In this document: positions 16,996 through 25,387 of the stretch, one piece after another
Numbering within the stretch: position 1 is the stretch's first letter
Layout of the letters: each line of letters begins with the position of its first letter
NCBI GenBank assembly: GCA_903955385.1
Contig: CAJBNH010000024.1
Coordinates: 1-64,000 of the forward strand
DNA from: an uncultured Myxococcales bacterium
GTDB lineage: Bacteria > Myxococcota_A > UBA9042
DNA length: 64,000 nt
Direction: 5' to 3'
Translations under genes and position numbers: made by a program
The notes under the pieces: model-generated
Told to the model about the DNA's origin: nothing
Seen by the model: only the letters and a program-made list of their open reading frames with translations
Databases searched by the model: none

Positions 16996-18336
16996 ATGCC
17001 TGCCCCGCTCTACCCACGCCCGCGGCGGCTGTTCGCGGTTTCGTCGCGCAGCCACGCGATCGGCGTTGGCATGGTCGTGTGCTTGCTGGGTGTACAGGGG
17101 GCTCACGCGGCCACGCCACGGGGTCCGAAGGCCCTGCCTCCTGCCGGCGTCGTGATGCCGGTGGAGGAGCCGCGCAAGGTCGTCGAGCCGACGGTCGTCG
17201 TGGTGCGGACGCCCGCCCAGTCGGTCAGGGGCCTGATTCGCAAGGGCAAGTTTGTTGAGGCGCTGGCCGAGATCGACAAGCTGCTCGCCGTTTCGCCTCA
17301 CGACGACGAATTGCGTGTTCAGCGGGCGCGGCTGTTGTACTGGCTCAATCGGCGGGCAGAGGCAGAGACCGAGCTGCGAGGCCTGCGTGCGCGGCATCCG
17401 GCCGATCTGGATGTGCTTGAGCTGTTGGCCAGAGTTCGACTTGCGTCGGGTGACTCCCACGGTGCGCTGGAGGCCTACCTGCAGATGGAAGCCGTCGGCG
17501 GCGTAAGTCCTCAGGTCCACCAGCGGATCATCGATCTCTTGGTGGAGGCGGGCGAAGCGGACAAGGCGCGACAGGCCCTTGCGTTGGGCGGCGTGCTCAG
17601 CGACGAGCAAGAGCTTCGGTTGGTGCATCAGGAACGGCCGTGGACGGCCGATCTGGGTTCGAGCTTGACGTTGCACAAGGGCCAGTACTGGCCCCGCGTC
17701 GAAGCCATGGCGGGGCGGCGGGTGACGCCGGCGCTGACGCTGGCGGGCGGTGCGGTGTACGAGAAACGCGACGTGGCGGAGGCCGTGTCGGGCAAGTTGG
17801 AGGCCTACTTGAGCTTCTGGCGGATCGACGCGATGGCCCACCTTTCCGGCTCGGCGTCGAATACCTTCCTGCCGCAGGTCGATGCCCGGCTCGACGGCGC
17901 TGTTGGCGTGTGGCGGCAAAAGCTCTCACTAGGCGTTTACGGCCGCTTCGCGCACTACCAGTACGCCAACCTGTTGAGTGGCGGCCCCTATGTGCAGATG
18001 AACTGGCGAGGCTGGACGCTGACCCCCGGATTCTTCCTGAACGAGACCAGCTACGCCAACCTGCCCAGCCGACTCGACCCGACCGGCTACTTGAAGCTGC
18101 GTTGGGAACAGAGCGCCCGTACCGCTTGGATCCTTTGGGGTTATTGGGGCCGTGACCAGACGTTTGTCGAACGGTTCGGTGCGACGGAAACCGGAGAGGC
18201 CGTGTCCGGCGTGTTCGGCGTGGACCACTGGTGGACCGGGCGTTGGGGAACGCGGGCCACCGTGTCGACCGCACGGCCGCTTGCCGGTGGCGAACCGTAC
18301 AGCGAGTTGAGCGTGATGTTGCGAGGCCGGCTGTGA
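16996..18336 (+). CDS. TPR protein with C-terminal YaiO-type outer-membrane barrel
   Basis: 446 residues. N-terminal signal (about 1-39, ending AHAA), then TPR-like helical repeats (about 75-205: VRGLIRKGKFVEALAEIDKLL, then RAEAETELRGLRARHPADLD), then a beta-rich domain from about residue 215 to the end with aromatic alternating strands (VGVWRQKLSLGVYGRFAHYQY, then GWTLTPGFFLNETSYAN). This TPR plus barrel layout matches exporters of synthase-dependent polysaccharides (PgaA, BcsC) in plan and YaiO in the barrel. Start ATG 16996 with AAGG upstream; GTG 16987 is an alternative. The stop overlaps the next gene by four bases. Role as a glycan-export pore is inferred. Confidence 0.8.
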   Translation: MPAPLYPRPRRLFAVSSRSHAIGVGMVVCLLGVQGAHAATPRGPKALPPAGVVMPVEEPRKVVEPTVVVVRTPAQSVRGLIRKGKFVEALAEIDKLLAVSPHDDELRVQRARLLYWLNRRAEAETELRGLRARHPADLDVLELLARVRLASGDSHGALEAYLQMEAVGGVSPQVHQRIIDLLVEAGEADKARQALALGGVLSDEQELRLVHQERPWTADLGSSLTLHKGQYWPRVEAMAGRRVTPALTLAGGAVYEKRDVAEAVSGKLEAYLSFWRIDAMAHLSGSASNTFLPQVDARLDGAVGVWRQKLSLGVYGRFAHYQYANLLSGGPYVQMNWRGWTLTPGFFLNETSYANLPSRLDPTGYLKLRWEQSARTAWILWGYWGRDQTFVERFGATETGEAVSGVFGVDHWWTGRWGTRATVSTARPLAGGEPYSELSVMLRGRL

Positions 18337-19406
18337 CCATGGACCAACTCAGCTTTTCTGAGCTCGTGATCATCGTCATCGTGGCGATCGAGCTGGTGAT
18401 CGTGGTCTTCGCGCTGGCCGCGATGCTCGTCGTGCGCAACCGCGCGATTCGTCGCGATGCGTCGTTCTCTGCCGTCCGCAAGGCCCTGGTCGACGTCGTC
18501 ACGCGCATCGGCTCGGATAGCGATCTGGGGCTGCGGGCGCAGGCCCTGACCGTGCTGGCGACGATCTCCAAGGACCACGCCAGACGGCTGTTGACCGAAA
18601 TGGCGGAGCTGGCTGGACAGGGAAAATCCTCCATTTTCGAAGACTTGTACGCGGGAGCCAACCTGGCCGACGAGGCGCGCGCCAATGCCGCCAGTCGTCC
18701 GTGGGAGCGTCTGCGGGCCATTCGTGAGGCTCGCGCGCTCTCGGATCCGGCGCGGCTGCTGCACGGGTTGGTGCGCGATGAGGTGCCCGACGTTCGTTTG
18801 GCAGCTTTCGAGGCGCTGTGCGTCCTTGGCCGTGCCGACGAGGCCGTGGTGGCACTGCCCGCGGTGGCTGGCGATGGGCGACTCAACCGCATGAGGTCGA
18901 CCGATGCCCTCTCGGCCGCGACGCCCTTCCCTGACCAGCAGGTGATTGCGCTGGTGGCTACGTCGACTCCGGAGATGCGTCAGGTCATCGTGGCCGCACT
19001 GGGCATTGCCAAGTCGCGGGCGGGCATCGACGTGATGGTCGCCTCGGTCACCGACCCCGATGCTGAGGTCCGCATCCAGGCGTTGCGGGCGCTGCGCGAG
19101 CTGGCCGACCGCTCTGCGCTGACCGCGAGCTTGGCCGCGCTGAAGGATGAACGCTGGGAAGTGCGCTCTGAGGCCACCCGCACCTGCGCCGCGCTGGGGC
19201 AGGGCGGTGCCGCGGAGGCCATCGCTGAGCTGCTGGACGACTCAGCCGAGTGGGTGCGTCACAACGCGGCGCTGGGCCTGACCCGCTGCGGACCCGCCGG
19301 CATCGGTGCCCTGCGAGCGGCTGCGGGTCGAGGCAACACCGCCGCCAGCAGCGCGTTGGCAGAGGCCCGCCTGACCGTCGCCGACCCCGCCGTCCAGCCG
19401 GGCTAA
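18333..19406 (+). CDS. Membrane-anchored HEAT-repeat protein of the glycan locus
   Basis: 357 residues. One N-terminal transmembrane helix (about 8-34, LVIIVIVAIELVIVVFALAA) followed by RNRAIRR, so the rest faces the cytoplasm. Then about five HEAT-like repeats of 30-35 residues (DPDAEVRIQALRALRELAD, then DERWEVRSEATRTCAALGQ, then DSAEWVRHNAALGLTRC). HEAT repeats are protein-binding scaffolds. Position between the pore and the synthase suggests it couples the synthase to export machinery or regulates it. The start at GTG 18333 (GTGA overlap) has GAGG six bases upstream; ATG 18339 is the alternative. Confidence 0.75.
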   Translation: MTMDQLSFSELVIIVIVAIELVIVVFALAAMLVVRNRAIRRDASFSAVRKALVDVVTRIGSDSDLGLRAQALTVLATISKDHARRLLTEMAELAGQGKSSIFEDLYAGANLADEARANAASRPWERLRAIREARALSDPARLLHGLVRDEVPDVRLAAFEALCVLGRADEAVVALPAVAGDGRLNRMRSTDALSAATPFPDQQVIALVATSTPEMRQVIVAALGIAKSRAGIDVMVASVTDPDAEVRIQALRALRELADRSALTASLAALKDERWEVRSEATRTCAALGQGGAAEAIAELLDDSAEWVRHNAALGLTRCGPAGIGALRAAAGRGNTAASSALAEARLTVADPAVQPG

Positions 19407-19419
19407 GGAGCGCAGACCC

Positions 19420-21909
19420 TTGATCGAGTTCTTCAACATTCTGGTGCTGCTGTACTTCGTCACGCTGACGGCGGGCTACATCGCCCTGTTCGTCTCGGCG
19501 GCGGTCGGCATCATCCGCGTGCGGCGGGAGCTCGAGGGCAGCTCACCGGAGAGCGTCAGCACCCGCGGGCGGGCGACACTGCCCATCTCGATTCTGGTGC
19601 CCGCCCACAATGAGGAGAAAACGGTCGTCGAGTCGGTTCGCGCCCTGCTGAAGCTGCGGTACCCCGAGCATGAAGTGGTGGTCGTCAACGACGGCTCGAC
19701 CGATCGCACGATGGCGCGTCTGCGGGCGGCGTTTGCGCTCGAGGCGGTGCCGCTGGACATCCGGCTGGAGCTGTCCTGCAAGCCGGTGCGCGCGACCTAC
19801 CGGTCGGCCATCTACAAGCGCCTGATCGTGGTGGACAAGGACAACGGCGGCAAGGCTGACGCCCTGAACTGCGCGATCAACGCGTCGCGCTTTCCCTTGG
19901 TCTGCGCCATCGACGCCGACACGCTGATCCTGCCCGATGCGCTGCTGCGCTTGGTCCGACCGTTCCTGACCGACGTCGATGTCGTGGCGGTCGGCGGCAC
20001 GATTTGCCTGGCCAATGGCTGCAAGATCGAGCACGGCACCGTGGTCGAGATGGGGCTGCCGCAGTCCTGGCTCGCTCGATTCCAGGTGGTTGAGTACCTG
20101 CGCGCGTTTCTGGTGGGTCGCCTCGGCTGGGACCGGATGGGCGGAAACCTTATCATTTCAGGCGCATTTGGGCTGTTCCGCCGCAGCGCGGTCACGGGTG
20201 CCGGCGGCTACGCCCACGACTCGGTCGGCGAGGACATGGAACTGGTGGCCCGCTTGCGCCACCAAGTGCCCAGCTGGCTGCAGGGCCGCGCGATCTGTCA
20301 CCTGCCCGACCCGGTCAGCTTCACGGAAGCTCCTGAAAGTCTTCGCATCCTTGGCAACCAGCGCGACCGCTGGCAGCGCGGTCTGGCCGACACGCTGTGG
20401 CGCCACCGCTCGATGAACTTCAACCGTCGCTACGGCGCGGTCGGCCTCGTCGTCATGCCGTTCTACATCGTGTTCGAGCTGTTCGGCCCGATCATCGAGA
20501 TGCTCGGCTACATCTACTTTGTCCTGATGGCGGTCGGTGGTGTTCTGGAACCGGTCTTTGCGTCGCTGTTCTTCGTCCTCGCGCTGCTGATCGGCTTCCT
20601 GTTGTCGTTGGGCAGCATCCTGCTCGAGCAACTCTCGCTGTCGTTCTATCGGGCGCGCGGCGACCTGTGGAAGCTGGTTGGCGTGGCTCTGTTCGAGAAC
20701 ATGGGCTACCGCCAGATGATCCTGTGGTACCGGTTGCGCGGGCTGTGGGGCTATTTCCGCAAGAAGAAGACTTGGGGACGCATGGTCCGCTTGGGCTTCG
20801 GCGCGCCGACTGCACGCAAGCGTGACCGCAGCAGGGCAATTCCGTTCCTCGTCGTGTCGCTGCTGTTGGGTGTCATCGCATTGCCCGTCACCTGGCTGCT
20901 CAAGCCGCGTCCCGACGCCAACGTCGTGCTGGTCGACAAGACCGTGCCGTTCACCAACTACCGGGAGCACGCTCGGTTGATGTGGTTGTTGTCGCAGGCC
21001 AAGGTTGAGCCGCCGGTCTCCAAGCTGCTGTGGGACCCCAAAGCGGACTACATCGGCTTCGACCCCGTGGCCAGGCGGATGCGCTTCCTGCAAGACGCGG
21101 ACTTGGAGAAGGCGACCCTGCTCTTCATCGCCGACACGTACGGGGTGTACACCGACGACTTTGACGCGATGCCGCGACCAGTGGCGCATCTCGAGCTCTC
21201 CAAGCGCGTTGCGGGGGGGCTGACCGAAGCTGAAGTCGCGGCGATCGAGCGTTACACGCTTCGCGGCGGCCGGATCATGGCGGAATTCAACACCTTCGCC
21301 ACGCCGACAGAGGAACTCCTGCGGCACCGGATGGAGACGGTGCTGGGCGTGCGCTGGAGCGGCTGGGCCGGTCGACGCGTGGACGAGTTCGGCGACCGGC
21401 TGGAGATTGCGCAGTGGGTGCAGCGTCGTTGGGCTCAAGAGACCGGCAAGCCGTACGATCTGCACGGCCCGGGCATTCTGATGATCCATGAGGACGGCCG
21501 CGTCCTTTGCCTGCAAGAAGGGCTGGACATCCCCGTCTCGCCGATGACCCTGCACATGGGCGAAGACGTGATTCCATTTACGTATTGGTTCGACGTCATC
21601 GCGGCTGAGCGGCCGGCCGAGGTGCGCGCCGAATTCCAGATCAAGACGACTCCCGCCGGGGCAAAGTTACTGGCGCATTTTGGCATTCCGAAACAGTTCC
21701 CAGCGGTTGTCCATGATGAAGCCTACCGACGTGTCTACATCGCCGGCGACATGGCAGATGGTGACGGAGCGCTCGGGCCTGCGTGGTTCTCTCTGATGCC
21801 GGAGATCCGAGCCGCCATGGCGCGCGCGGGCATGGTTCCTGAGGACGTGCGGCTGTTCTGGACCATCTATGCTCCTCTGGTGCGCCGTACGATCGAGGGC
21901 GGTTCGTGA
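19420..21909 (+). CDS. Processive family-2 glycosyltransferase fused to an extracytoplasmic domain
   Basis: 829 residues, TTG start with AAGGAG nine bases before. Membrane segment 5-30, then a GT2 catalytic domain (about 55-330) with ILVPAHNEE, VVVNDGSTD (Asp91), DAD (165-167), GED (270-272) and QRDRW (314-318), the set of processive beta-synthases such as BcsA, HasA and PgaC. Membrane helices occur at about 340-410 and 473-494. A 330-residue C-terminal domain then lies outside the inner membrane; its GLTEAEVAAIERYTLRGGRI pattern recalls GATase-like folds, but I cannot name it. The synthase should polymerise and extrude a glycan of unknown composition. Fusion to the C-terminal domain is unusual. 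Confidence 0.9.
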   Translation: MIEFFNILVLLYFVTLTAGYIALFVSAAVGIIRVRRELEGSSPESVSTRGRATLPISILVPAHNEEKTVVESVRALLKLRYPEHEVVVVNDGSTDRTMARLRAAFALEAVPLDIRLELSCKPVRATYRSAIYKRLIVVDKDNGGKADALNCAINASRFPLVCAIDADTLILPDALLRLVRPFLTDVDVVAVGGTICLANGCKIEHGTVVEMGLPQSWLARFQVVEYLRAFLVGRLGWDRMGGNLIISGAFGLFRRSAVTGAGGYAHDSVGEDMELVARLRHQVPSWLQGRAICHLPDPVSFTEAPESLRILGNQRDRWQRGLADTLWRHRSMNFNRRYGAVGLVVMPFYIVFELFGPIIEMLGYIYFVLMAVGGVLEPVFASLFFVLALLIGFLLSLGSILLEQLSLSFYRARGDLWKLVGVALFENMGYRQMILWYRLRGLWGYFRKKKTWGRMVRLGFGAPTARKRDRSRAIPFLVVSLLLGVIALPVTWLLKPRPDANVVLVDKTVPFTNYREHARLMWLLSQAKVEPPVSKLLWDPKADYIGFDPVARRMRFLQDADLEKATLLFIADTYGVYTDDFDAMPRPVAHLELSKRVAGGLTEAEVAAIERYTLRGGRIMAEFNTFATPTEELLRHRMETVLGVRWSGWAGRRVDEFGDRLEIAQWVQRRWAQETGKPYDLHGPGILMIHEDGRVLCLQEGLDIPVSPMTLHMGEDVIPFTYWFDVIAAERPAEVRAEFQIKTTPAGAKLLAHFGIPKQFPAVVHDEAYRRVYIAGDMADGDGALGPAWFSLMPEIRAAMARAGMVPEDVRLFWTIYAPLVRRTIEGGS

Positions 21910-23219
21910 CCCAGAAGTGGCCGCGTGCACTGGCGTGGGGGCTACTGGTCGTCCTGACGTCGGGTTGCAGTGCGGCCTTGGTGCGACCTGACGAGGGCGA
22001 GTGCCGCGGAGCCGATGTCGCCACATGGGCGAAGCGCGCGGCGGCCTCCCTCGTGACCCGCCCCTATCGCCCCGCGGTGATTTACGACGTCGGCCGACAA
22101 GGCCTCTCGACCGTCTTTCGTGCAGGCCCCCTCGACCCTGACGCCCGTGCGGTCGTCAGCTACCCCGACGTTGCGCGGTTTCCCGGGCAGGGCCCGGGGT
22201 TCGACCGTGTTCAGGACCGCAGCTTCGTGTACGACGACGCGCTGGTGGCGCTGTGGCTGACTTCCCGAGGCGACCGGGACGGTGCCCGCCGCATTCTCTC
22301 GACCCTGGCTGCCTTGCAGCGGCCCGACGGCGCGTGGGGCTTCAGCTTCCAGACCGGCCGTGACGGCTTCTACAACGCGGGCTACGTGCGGGCTGGCACT
22401 GTCGCCTGGGTCGTTTACGCCTTCGCACGCTACGCCAGCAAGTTCGACGAGATGCGCTGGTCTTCAACCATCGACCGCGGCGTGGCGTGGCTGGTACGCC
22501 AGCACGACCCGGTGACCGGTCTGGTGTCCGCCGGACTGGGGCGCTGGGTGTCGTCCGACGTCTTCGACCCCGACTGGGTCGGCAGCTTCGCGTCGACGGA
22601 GCATCAACTCGACATCTGGTTCGCATTTCAGGCCGCGCAGCAGGCGGACCCGGCCGTGGCCAGTCGCTGGCAGCTGGCGCGGGCTGCGCAGGCGCTCGTC
22701 GCGGCGGTCGACGCATTCCTGTGGCGCGCGGAAGAGGGGCGATACGTGCAGGGCATCGCAGGGACGCGAATCGATGAGGGAAGCGCGCTGGACGCAAGCG
22801 GTACGTGGGCGGCGCTCTACGACGTTGCGGTGGGGAGAAACGTCAGGAGCGACTCGGCGTTGCAGTGGGTCGAGGCGCACCACGGCATCGACGTGCAGGG
22901 GTGGGCAGGGCTGCGACCTTACGAAGGCCTGCCGCCCGATACGTGGTTCGTCGAGGCGTCGGTGGCCGTACCGCTGGCGCTGTCCCGCTTGGGGCGGCGG
23001 CAACAGGCCTTGGAGGCACTGCAGCCGTTCGCCGATCTGGCTTGCGCCGGAGGGGTCCCCTTGGTCTACTCGCCCGTCTGGGCGACAGACTTCCCCTTCA
23101 GCCCAGCGACCGCGCCAACCGTCTGGTTCCTGTTTGCGGCCGCCGAAGTGGTGGGAGGGGAGGCGCCGTTTCTGTGGAGCGAGCGCCTCAACGTCCCGAT
23201 CGGCCCCGCAGCGAGGTGA
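21906..23219 (+). CDS. Lipoprotein with alpha/alpha-barrel-like glycan-active fold
   Basis: 437 residues, GTG start overlapping the synthase stop. Lipobox VVLTSGC. The mature part is all-helical with repeated aromatic/acidic segments (FVYDDALVALWLTSRGDRDG, LAALQRPDGAWGFSFQTG, YVRAGTVAWVVYAFARYASK) of the kind seen in alpha/alpha-barrel glycoside hydrolases and polysaccharide lyases. Export loci of this type often carry a periplasmic hydrolase or lyase (BcsZ, PgaB, AlgL), and this is the best candidate for that part. Catalytic residues cannot be assigned from sequence alone. Family not recognised. Confidence 0.7.
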   Translation: MTQKWPRALAWGLLVVLTSGCSAALVRPDEGECRGADVATWAKRAAASLVTRPYRPAVIYDVGRQGLSTVFRAGPLDPDARAVVSYPDVARFPGQGPGFDRVQDRSFVYDDALVALWLTSRGDRDGARRILSTLAALQRPDGAWGFSFQTGRDGFYNAGYVRAGTVAWVVYAFARYASKFDEMRWSSTIDRGVAWLVRQHDPVTGLVSAGLGRWVSSDVFDPDWVGSFASTEHQLDIWFAFQAAQQADPAVASRWQLARAAQALVAAVDAFLWRAEEGRYVQGIAGTRIDEGSALDASGTWAALYDVAVGRNVRSDSALQWVEAHHGIDVQGWAGLRPYEGLPPDTWFVEASVAVPLALSRLGRRQQALEALQPFADLACAGGVPLVYSPVWATDFPFSPATAPTVWFLFAAAEVVGGEAPFLWSERLNVPIGPAAR

Positions 23220-23224
23220 TGGCC

Positions 23225-24220
23225 ATGGCGACACCGGCCTCTCCTTGGCTCGACACGACGCGTTTCCCCGGCCGCCGATTTCTCGACTCGGTGGGTCGAA
23301 CCCACGGCATCGCGGGCGCCTCGACACCGGCCGTCGCGGCGGAAGCGGAACTGCGACGCGCCTGGGCCGCCCAACTCGCCGTCGATCCTGCAGACCTCGT
23401 CCCTGTTGCCACCGGGGCCGACGCCCTGCGGTTGGTCTTTCAGTCGCTGCTGGCGCCGGGTGACACGGTCTTGCTCGCTGAGCCAGCGCCGGCAGACGCG
23501 CTGCAAGCGATTCTGGCGACTGGCGCGCGTTATGTGGACGTCGGCCGGGGGGCTCAAGGCGACGTCGATGCGGCCGGACTGCACCGGGCCTTGGGATGGC
23601 ACGCTTCACCGGTCCTGTTCGGACAGGCTCCCGGGCTGTTCGGTGCAAGCGACGTCCCGGCCCTTGGCGCGCAGTCACGGGCGCGAGCCGTCGTGATCGA
23701 TGCGCGCATGGACGCTCGCTGGGCTGGGCCACCGCTTTTCGGCGATCGGCCGCTCGCGACGGTGGTGGCGCTGCGAGACCTTGCGGACCCCAGACTTGGC
23801 GTTGCCCATGCCGTCGTGTGTGCGACGGGAACGGGCGCCCAGCTGGCAGGCCTTCGCGGTACTGAGGCTCTGCCGGTGCCCCTTTCGCGCGCGGCGCTCG
23901 CGGTGCTGCAGGAGCTTGCCCAATCTCCCGCGCGGGTGGTCGACGCCGAGCTGGCGATGCAAGCCTGCTACGATGAATTCACCAGCCTAATCAGCAGGAT
24001 GGGCCGTCCGGGTGTGACCGTTCTGCCGCGAGCCGGTACCGTGGCATCGGCAGAGTGCGCGGCGGGCGACGCCCCTGAGGTCGCCGTGTCGCTGGCGCGC
24101 TCTGGTCTGCTGGTCGTGGGTGGTCATGGCGCTTGGCCGATGCGGAATCTGGTCGTCATCGACCTTGCACCCGCTGCGGCAACAGCCCCTTGGGACTACC
24201 AAGATTCCCATCGAGTTTGA
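23225..24220 (+). CDS. Aminotransferase-fold protein with no lysine (likely pseudoenzyme)
   Basis: 331 residues. The middle matches fold-type I aminotransferases: VATGADALRLVFQSLLAPGD, then VLLAEPAPADALQAILATGA, then AVVIDARMD (where VVDEAY is expected) and ATVVALRDLADPRLGVAHAV (where a TLSK PLP-lysine motif is expected). The catalytic lysine is absent, and the whole 331-residue product contains no lysine at all, so it cannot form the internal aldimine. It is probably non-catalytic, perhaps a binding or regulatory protein in the glycan locus. Start 23225 is chosen for GAGGTGA spacing; ATG 23219 overlaps the previous stop. Confidence 0.7.
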   Translation: MATPASPWLDTTRFPGRRFLDSVGRTHGIAGASTPAVAAEAELRRAWAAQLAVDPADLVPVATGADALRLVFQSLLAPGDTVLLAEPAPADALQAILATGARYVDVGRGAQGDVDAAGLHRALGWHASPVLFGQAPGLFGASDVPALGAQSRARAVVIDARMDARWAGPPLFGDRPLATVVALRDLADPRLGVAHAVVCATGTGAQLAGLRGTEALPVPLSRAALAVLQELAQSPARVVDAELAMQACYDEFTSLISRMGRPGVTVLPRAGTVASAECAAGDAPEVAVSLARSGLLVVGGHGAWPMRNLVVIDLAPAAATAPWDYQDSHRV

Positions 24221-24253: not shown

Positions 24254-25387
24254 ATGTCGAGATTGCGTTGCTCAGACCCGATCGTGCTGCTTGGGGTGGC
24301 CCTTGCCACCCTTGTCGCCGTCGGCTGCAACAGCAACGACCCCGAATCGCAGAAACCTCCCGCAGATATTCCACTTTCTGCGCGGGTCGAACGCGTCCTC
24401 AACGACCCCCAGGCACTGCCAAGACCCGTTGCGCTGCCCGTCGCCGCTACGTCGGCCGCAGCGCCCTTGGCTGTCGAGCCGACTCCGGCGGCACCAGAGC
24501 CTCCCGTGGCCGCTGCACCGGCCGCAGAAGCTCCGGCGGCGCCTGCGACGCAGCCCCCGCAAGCTGTGGATGCCCCGATCCTGCCCGTGCCGATCGTTCC
24601 CCGCGCAGTGCAGTCTGCAGTCGCTGTCGATACCCAGCATCCGGTCAAGCTTTCCGCCAAGGCCAAGCGGATTGCTGCGCGAAAGGCCAAGGCAGAAAAG
24701 GCAAAGGCGGCGAAGGCTGCGAAGGCGGCGAAGAACAAGGCCGCAAAAGCCGCGAAAGCCGCGAAACTCAAGGCGGCGAAGGCTGCCAAGGCCGCGAAGA
24801 TCAAGGCTGCGAAAGCCGCCAAGGCCGAGAAATTGGCTGCCGCCAAGTCCGCACAGGCCTCTCCGGTGTCAGGAACCAAGCTGTCGAAGGCCAAGGCGAA
24901 GGCCAAGGCAAAGGCGGACGCCAAAGCAGCAAAGGCCAAGGCGACCAAGGCAACCAAAGCAACCAAAGCAACCAAGACCGTCCAAGCGACGTCCAAGAAG
25001 TCTACGCCCCCGGCGCAGTCTGAGCCGGCCGTCGAGGCGCCCGCCGGGGCGGACGCAACCGACTTGTACTACTCCGGAAAGCGCAAACTCGACGCCGGAG
25101 ACTACAAGGGCGCCATCGCCGACCTGAAGGTCTCGCAGCAGCTGCGTCCCAGCGCGCGCACCCTGACGCTGCTTGGGCGTGCCTACTTCGACGGCAACAA
25201 GCTCCCGGAGGCAGAGAAGGTGCTCAAGCAAGCAGGGGCGCACGACGAGGCCCAGCTGCTGCTCGCCAACCTGTATCAGCAGCGTGGCAAGATTGCGGAT
25301 GCCCGGCGCGTCTATCAGGCCTTCCTGCAAGCGCATCCGGACCATGCCAAGGCCGGTTGGGTCCGCAACCTGCTCCAGACGCTTTGA
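24254..25387 (+). CDS. Lipoprotein with Lys/Ala-rich repeat and C-terminal TPRs
   Basis: 377 residues. Lipobox ATLVAVGC (Cys25), a Pro/Ala-rich section (about 70-110), then about 125 residues built of KAAKAAK-type units (histone H1-like composition), then two or three TPR-like repeats to the end (YYSGKRKLDAGDYKGAIADL, then LLANLYQQRGKIADARRVYQ). The basic segment could bind peptidoglycan, acidic glycans or DNA at the cell surface. It follows the glycan locus by 33 bases. TGATG joins its stop to the rhomboid start. Confidence 0.75.
   Translation: MSRLRCSDPIVLLGVALATLVAVGCNSNDPESQKPPADIPLSARVERVLNDPQALPRPVALPVAATSAAAPLAVEPTPAAPEPPVAAAPAAEAPAAPATQPPQAVDAPILPVPIVPRAVQSAVAVDTQHPVKLSAKAKRIAARKAKAEKAKAAKAAKAAKNKAAKAAKAAKLKAAKAAKAAKIKAAKAAKAEKLAAAKSAQASPVSGTKLSKAKAKAKAKADAKAAKAKATKATKATKATKTVQATSKKSTPPAQSEPAVEAPAGADATDLYYSGKRKLDAGDYKGAIADLKVSQQLRPSARTLTLLGRAYFDGNKLPEAEKVLKQAGAHDEAQLLLANLYQQRGKIADARRVYQAFLQAHPDHAKAGWVRNLLQTL
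24655..24995 (+). repeat. Degenerate Lys/Ala codon repeat inside the lipoprotein gene
   Basis: A run of AAG/AAA GCN GCN units codes for lysine- and alanine-rich heptad-like blocks, some nearly identical (GCCAAGGC and AACCAAAGC units recur). It is coding repeat DNA, prone to length change, not an intergenic repeat. Confidence 0.7.

Follow-up and report, generated by a model that had tools for sequence, protein, structure and literature searches.

A myxococcal gene cluster as a probable divergent member of a widespread synthase-dependent exopolysaccharide system built on HEAT, GT2 and Cx proteins

The window analysed here is a whole stretch of 64,000 nucleotides from an uncultured Myxococcales bacterium (contig CAJBNH010000024.1, positions 1 to 64,000), for which a first-pass annotation had proposed an exopolysaccharide export locus of five tightly packed genes. 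The five genes, named A to E (Table 1), do lie close together on the same strand, with gaps of 2 bp between A and B and 13 bp between B and C, a 4 bp overlap between C and D and a 1 bp overlap between D and E. The open reading frame of C, which extends over 19420–21909, has a TTG start with AAGGAG upstream of it. Promoter and terminator scans gave no signal above that of shuffled sequences. Downstream of the locus (24254–25387) is a gene for a Lys/Ala-rich TolA-like protein with a C-terminal TPR, which is kept downstream in several relatives.

Table 1. Genes and domains of the locus, with predicted roles and the evidence used to assign them.
Feature	Predicted product	Coordinates	Strand	Basis
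A	Signal-bearing protein with TPR repeats and a YaiO-type outer-membrane barrel at its C-terminus (putative export pore)	16996..18336	+	TPR_19, profile comparison
B	HEAT-repeat protein facing the cytoplasm, with one TM helix at its N-terminus; conserved synthase partner	18339..19406	+	HEAT_2, positive-inside
C, N-terminal part	Membrane-spanning processive GT2 polysaccharide synthase	19420..20913	+	Glycos_transf_2, motifs
Cx, C-terminal part of C	Extracytoplasmic domain, widespread family	20914..21909	+	no Pfam/NCBIfam/PDB relative
D	Lipoprotein, (alpha/alpha)-barrel glycosidase-like	21906..23219	+	AF2, Foldseek, lipobox
E	Lysine-free aminotransferase-fold protein; peripheral, lineage-specific	23219..24220	+	weak AT large-domain match

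The N-terminal part of C matches Glycos_transf_2 of Pfam (E 5e-21), keeps the processive GT2 signatures DADT, GED and QRDRW and is predicted to cross the membrane several times, the final helix being at residues 476–494, in agreement with its earlier description as a processive synthase carrying an additional domain. The ~330–350 residues that follow this helix, hereafter Cx, have no match in Pfam or NCBIfam; the AF2 model of full-length C reached a mean pLDDT of 57, being fair only in parts of Cx, and Foldseek returned nothing below E 0.2. The best NCBIfam profile for C is PgaC/IcaA, at 119.6 bits against a cut-off of 422, and the equivalog models PgaA (25 against 367 bits) and CelA (37 against 699 bits) were missed by wide margins too. 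On the family HMM, all 24 rows grouping with the window GT2 scored at least 348 bits, compared with 68 for PgaC, 31 for YaiP, 17 for BcsA and 3.5 for NfrB of Escherichia coli. The enzymes of the system from several phyla also cluster in a GT2 tree (92/99), apart from these four E. coli proteins; the E. coli rows of this tree are long-branched, however, and L146, a GT2 linked to Cx, is not in the cluster.

The neighbouring products were likewise close to what had been read from the sequence at first. B matches HEAT_2 (E 6e-20) and has a single helix at residues 9–27 with four K/R after it and none before, which by the positive-inside rule predicts that its repeats face the cytoplasm. A combines a hydrophobic N-terminal segment with TPR_19 repeats (E 4e-12). 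The YaiO model TIGR04390, whose curated cut-off is 32 bits, gave no match to A of the window at E<1, this protein being too diverged for it, and matched A orthologues in 11 genomes of the same family, four above and seven below the cut-off. When the barrel columns of A were compared with those of YaiO barrels, a full-length alignment was obtained with an hhalign probability of 93.6, the control with the TPR half giving 0; on this profile evidence, A is predicted to be a divergent YaiO barrel. D possesses a lipobox (LTSGC) with a nearly invariant Cys21 and no Pfam match, and its AF2 model (mean pLDDT 93.1) adopts an (alpha/alpha) fold, for which the best Foldseek match was the polysaccharide hydrolase MmpH (7qsj, E 1.3e-9, TM ~0.5–0.65), followed by many (alpha/alpha) glycosidases, phosphorylases and epimerases. 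Residues D110, E232, H233, D236, D296, E350 and D395 are invariant in 19 sequences of D. We thus consider D a putative periplasmic polysaccharide hydrolase, of a fold that serves epimerases and phosphorylases too.

A search with C found a homologue in all 21 genomes of the same family (60–79% identity), and the order A-B-C-D is identical in the 20 loci that could be read through A; in the 21st genome, B-C-D are present on a 3.6 kb contig that stops before A. Overlaps of 4 bp occur between A and B in 17 of the 20 loci and between C and D in six. Because C is conserved and the four genes keep their order, often with such overlaps, chance is excluded as the origin of this arrangement. The first-pass annotation had also described the cluster as displacing ribBA-ribH after ribE. 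It is correct that ribH and ribBA are on other contigs, and the ribE-A adjacency is common to most of the family, but it is missing near A-D in three genomes that keep the four genes (L047–L049); the adjacency is therefore incidental, and we do not assign the rib genes a part in the system.

Some loci of this group deserve separate mention. Another family of the same class (G023, L056) has the genes as A-B-GT2-Cx-D, and a GH-like gene runs towards the cluster. A metagenome-assembled genome titled 'Klebsiella pneumoniae' (L070, CAMDBH010000018.1) carries a myxococcal A-D locus that matches the same-family genome G001, so that its public label looks wrong. Besides its A-D locus, genome G011 has on separate contigs a second GT2 (C16, L057) and a second, stand-alone Cx (C75, L059), which suggests a paralogous system that was split or rearranged. 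Finally, a GT2 of this group lies beside a gene for a divergent YaiO-like barrel in a genome with no Cx match (L058, G040:C23).

Cx sequences from across phyla had no relative in Pfam or the PDB, and NCBIfam likewise has no entry for the family. When a single genome of each species was scanned, Cx was encoded in 417 genomic stretches from many phyla, 80 of which were kept, 59 of the kept loci being outside the family of the window. At these 59 loci, a GT2 of the subfamily of C was found in 44, a HEAT gene in 46 and both in 43, and a GH-like domain was present in 43. The system occurs in Bacillota, Bacteroidota, Spirochaetota, Acidobacteriota, Sericytochromatia and Myxococcota and is thus not specific to delta-type genomes. 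The linkage of homologues was recovered both within the family and beyond it. By sequence comparison, A-D is one version of a gene set present, partly or wholly, from Bacillus to Bacteroidota.

The arrangement of the set varies among these groups. Bacillota typically have GGDEF, HEAT and GT2 genes in this order, followed by a gene in which Cx and the GH-like domain are fused; Spirochaetes have a GGDEF gene, then a HEAT-GT2 fusion and then a Cx-GH-like fusion. Cx, which in the window is joined to the synthase, is elsewhere either fused to a glycosidase-like domain or a separate anchored protein. The latter is the case in L056, where Cx is anchored by its N-terminus, which shows it to be an independent unit and supports an extracytoplasmic position. 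For the GH-like domain that is joined to Cx in Bacillota, the PDB has no relative, and 4 of 15 members gave weak hints of GH113; its homologues are on other contigs in 14 of the 21 same-family genomes and none was found in the genome of the window, so that we do not claim it as part of the window system. In three Lysinibacillus loci (L116, L130, L143), HEAT-GT2-Cx is accompanied by another, divergent Cx-GH fusion encoded on the other strand. Moreover, four Cx genes from Acidobacteria and Gemmatimonadales (L091, L092, L093, L120) have no GT2 or HEAT gene within ~8 kb; the stand-alone genes of Acidobacteria may reflect other uses of the Cx family.

The HEAT and GT2 proteins are fused into a single polypeptide in four Spirochaete loci (L117, L118, L125, L140), an argument for a direct cooperation of B with the synthase at the cytoplasmic face. 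No PilZ, MshEN or PgaD match was obtained in the window locus, which thus holds no recognised c-di-GMP receptor domain, and the eight GGDEF proteins of the genome are encoded elsewhere. Among the 59 loci outside the family, GGDEF is present at 34, and 16 of 37 GGDEF matches in relatives are without the canonical motif. The HEAT protein is a candidate for the c-di-GMP-linked part of the system, and the HEAT protein and synthase would probably be tuned by this messenger, given that a GGDEF protein adjoins them in many relatives. Three of the Spirochaete operons (L118, L125, L140) start with a GGDEF-type protein, and the first gene of the fourth (L117:3053-4819) encodes an ODP (flavo-diiron beta-lactamase-like) sensor domain together with a receiver and a GGDEF domain, a hint that the polysaccharide may be controlled by oxygen or redox state.

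Between Cytophagales and Bacillota, the distribution of YaiO follows the organization of the cell envelope. TPR proteins linked to Cx scored on TIGR04390 204 bits in Algoriphagus, 164 in Aminicenantes and 116 in Sericytochromatia, and less in Myxococcota. Sampling of the orders to which Algoriphagus and Priestia belong detected Cx in 17 of 241 and in 67 of 199 genomes, respectively. In Cytophagales, YaiO is present at 16 of 16 further Cx loci and hence, with Algoriphagus, at 17/17; the 16 further loci include HEAT in 14 and GT2 in 15 (one of them only a fragment at a contig end). The order there is mostly HEAT-GT2-YaiO-Cx, two loci having the order of the window, YaiO-HEAT-GT2-Cx. On the monoderm side, YaiO was near Cx in 0/38 Bacillota loci and was absent from one whole Priestia genome. 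These are raw counts that ignore relatedness, and the split they show between Cytophagales and Bacillota is what an outer-membrane exporter predicts. The Spirochaete Cx loci, though from diderms, have no YaiO at the locus.

We therefore propose, with a probability of about 0.8, that A-B-C-D belongs, in divergent form, to a broad synthase-dependent exopolysaccharide system whose shared core of HEAT, GT2 and Cx proteins is joined by YaiO in many diderms. The genes make it very probable that the set synthesises a sugar polymer and exports it. At the inner membrane, the GT2 would polymerise a sugar nucleotide and thread the chain out, with the HEAT protein as a scaffold or regulatory subunit on the cytoplasmic face. 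Cx would receive or modify the chain leaving the synthase and the lipoprotein D would trim it, after which the TPR part of A could guide it to the outer-membrane barrel of the same protein. A bolder proposal, to which we give even odds, is that HEAT-GT2-Cx is a further class of synthase-dependent polysaccharide machine, shared by monoderms and diderms. A membrane-anchored HEAT protein would here stand in for PilZ, PgaD or MshEN as the subunit linked to c-di-GMP in the cytoplasm, Cx would act at the exit of the synthase as a new enzyme or as a new fold that binds polysaccharide, and YaiO barrels would be the outer-membrane exporters.

GT2 enzymes serve many pathways and Cx stands alone in some Acidobacteria, both of which would suit an envelope glycan that is not secreted. 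The enzyme would then build a short glycan on lipid, protein or peptidoglycan, Cx and D would remodel the envelope and A would have a structural or delivery role. We regard this as unlikely, since C carries the QxxRW processive signature and has PgaC/IcaA as its best NCBIfam profile, a YaiO-type barrel is tied to Cx in Cytophagales as well as in Myxococcota, and GGDEF and GH-like domains are repeatedly linked to the set.

E had been described as a lysine-free protein of aminotransferase fold, and it indeed has zero Lys and a weak match to the aminotransferase large domain, with no match in Pfam; eight orthologues share no Lys column, hence the Schiff-base lysine of fold-type I PLP enzymes is absent. 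The protein could be a full fifth subunit of the system that senses, for instance, an amino-sugar precursor, as its 1 bp overlap with D and its position within ~50 bp after D in five relatives would allow. We consider this very unlikely: E is found in eight genomes of the family (seven of the 20 loci plus the window), which leaves out most genomes with A-D, and in two relatives it lies 589–723 bp from D; outside the family, to which the search for E was confined, none came to notice. E is thus an accessory, lineage-specific addition, and on this distribution we rejected it as a core subunit, contrary to its inclusion in the original five-gene set.

Synthase-dependent exopolysaccharides, five of which were counted in a 2020 survey (PMC7112194) and to which NfrBA was added in 2021 (PMC8669469), are defined by an inner-membrane synthase, a c-di-GMP domain or co-polymerase, a periplasmic modifying enzyme and a TPR protein with an outer-membrane pore (PMC7112194). 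The initial plan of a TPR-barrel, a GT2 and a hydrolase agrees with this definition for the synthase (motifs and membrane helices), the modifying enzyme (D, by fold only) and the TPR-pore (A, by profile); a c-di-GMP part is hinted at by the GGDEF genes of relatives. We give almost no credence to the locus being a diverged variant of Pga/PNAG, Bcs/cellulose or Nfr, since, despite this common plan and the PgaC/IcaA match of C, the equivalog cut-offs are missed widely, the E. coli PgaC, BcsA and NfrB score far below the grouped GT2s on the family HMM, and PilZ, MshEN and PgaB-type deacetylase matches are lacking in the locus. The system is best read as distinct from Bcs, Pga, alginate, Pel and Nfr; its GT2 subfamily is different and its Cx family is new to Pfam, NCBIfam and the PDB. 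Searches of the open-access literature found no description of the set, one elsewhere being possible. The proposal of an undescribed exopolysaccharide locus is thus partly supported: its core reading, the linkage of the genes and, by profile, the barrel stand, whereas E is a lineage addition, the system reaches beyond delta-type genomes and Cx is elsewhere found apart from the synthase.

Pga/Ica (PgaABCD) resembles the locus in its TPR-barrel porin, GT2 synthase and periplasmic hydrolase, and Gram-positive ica operons have no outer-membrane pore (PMC7112194), just as YaiO is absent in Bacillota. The locus differs in having HEAT and Cx in place of PgaD and the PgaB deacetylase, for whose domain no Pfam match was found there, and in falling far below the PgaC/IcaA and PgaA cut-offs. 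NfrBA-YbcH, which produces the NGR glycan of E. coli, also combines a GT2 synthase, a TPR-barrel and an anchored periplasmic protein, and in some genomes DGC genes are linked to it (PMC8669469); in contrast to NfrB, C has no MshEN match, and NfrB is remote from it on the family HMM. Bcs and Pel share the plan of TPR, outer-membrane pore and glycoside hydrolase, but the CelA score and the lack of a PilZ match in the locus separate it from Bcs, and the Pel synthase is a GT4 enzyme. B. subtilis YdaJKLMN and Listeria Pss are c-di-GMP-linked GT2 exopolysaccharide operons of Bacillota and similar in this respect, but are not known to have HEAT or Cx. The E. coli region yaiS-yaiP-(yaiX)-yaiO has a YaiO-family barrel near a GT2 gene, as here, although yaiO is not directly beside yaiP, as had been stated, an IS2-split yaiX lying in between; no HEAT or Cx is annotated in the region read and YaiP is outside the GT2 group. 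The gene set suggests a function for YaiO barrels that is directly testable in harmless cultivable bacteria: if our reading is true, this orphan family would gain a role as the outer-membrane exporter of the HEAT-GT2-Cx machine.
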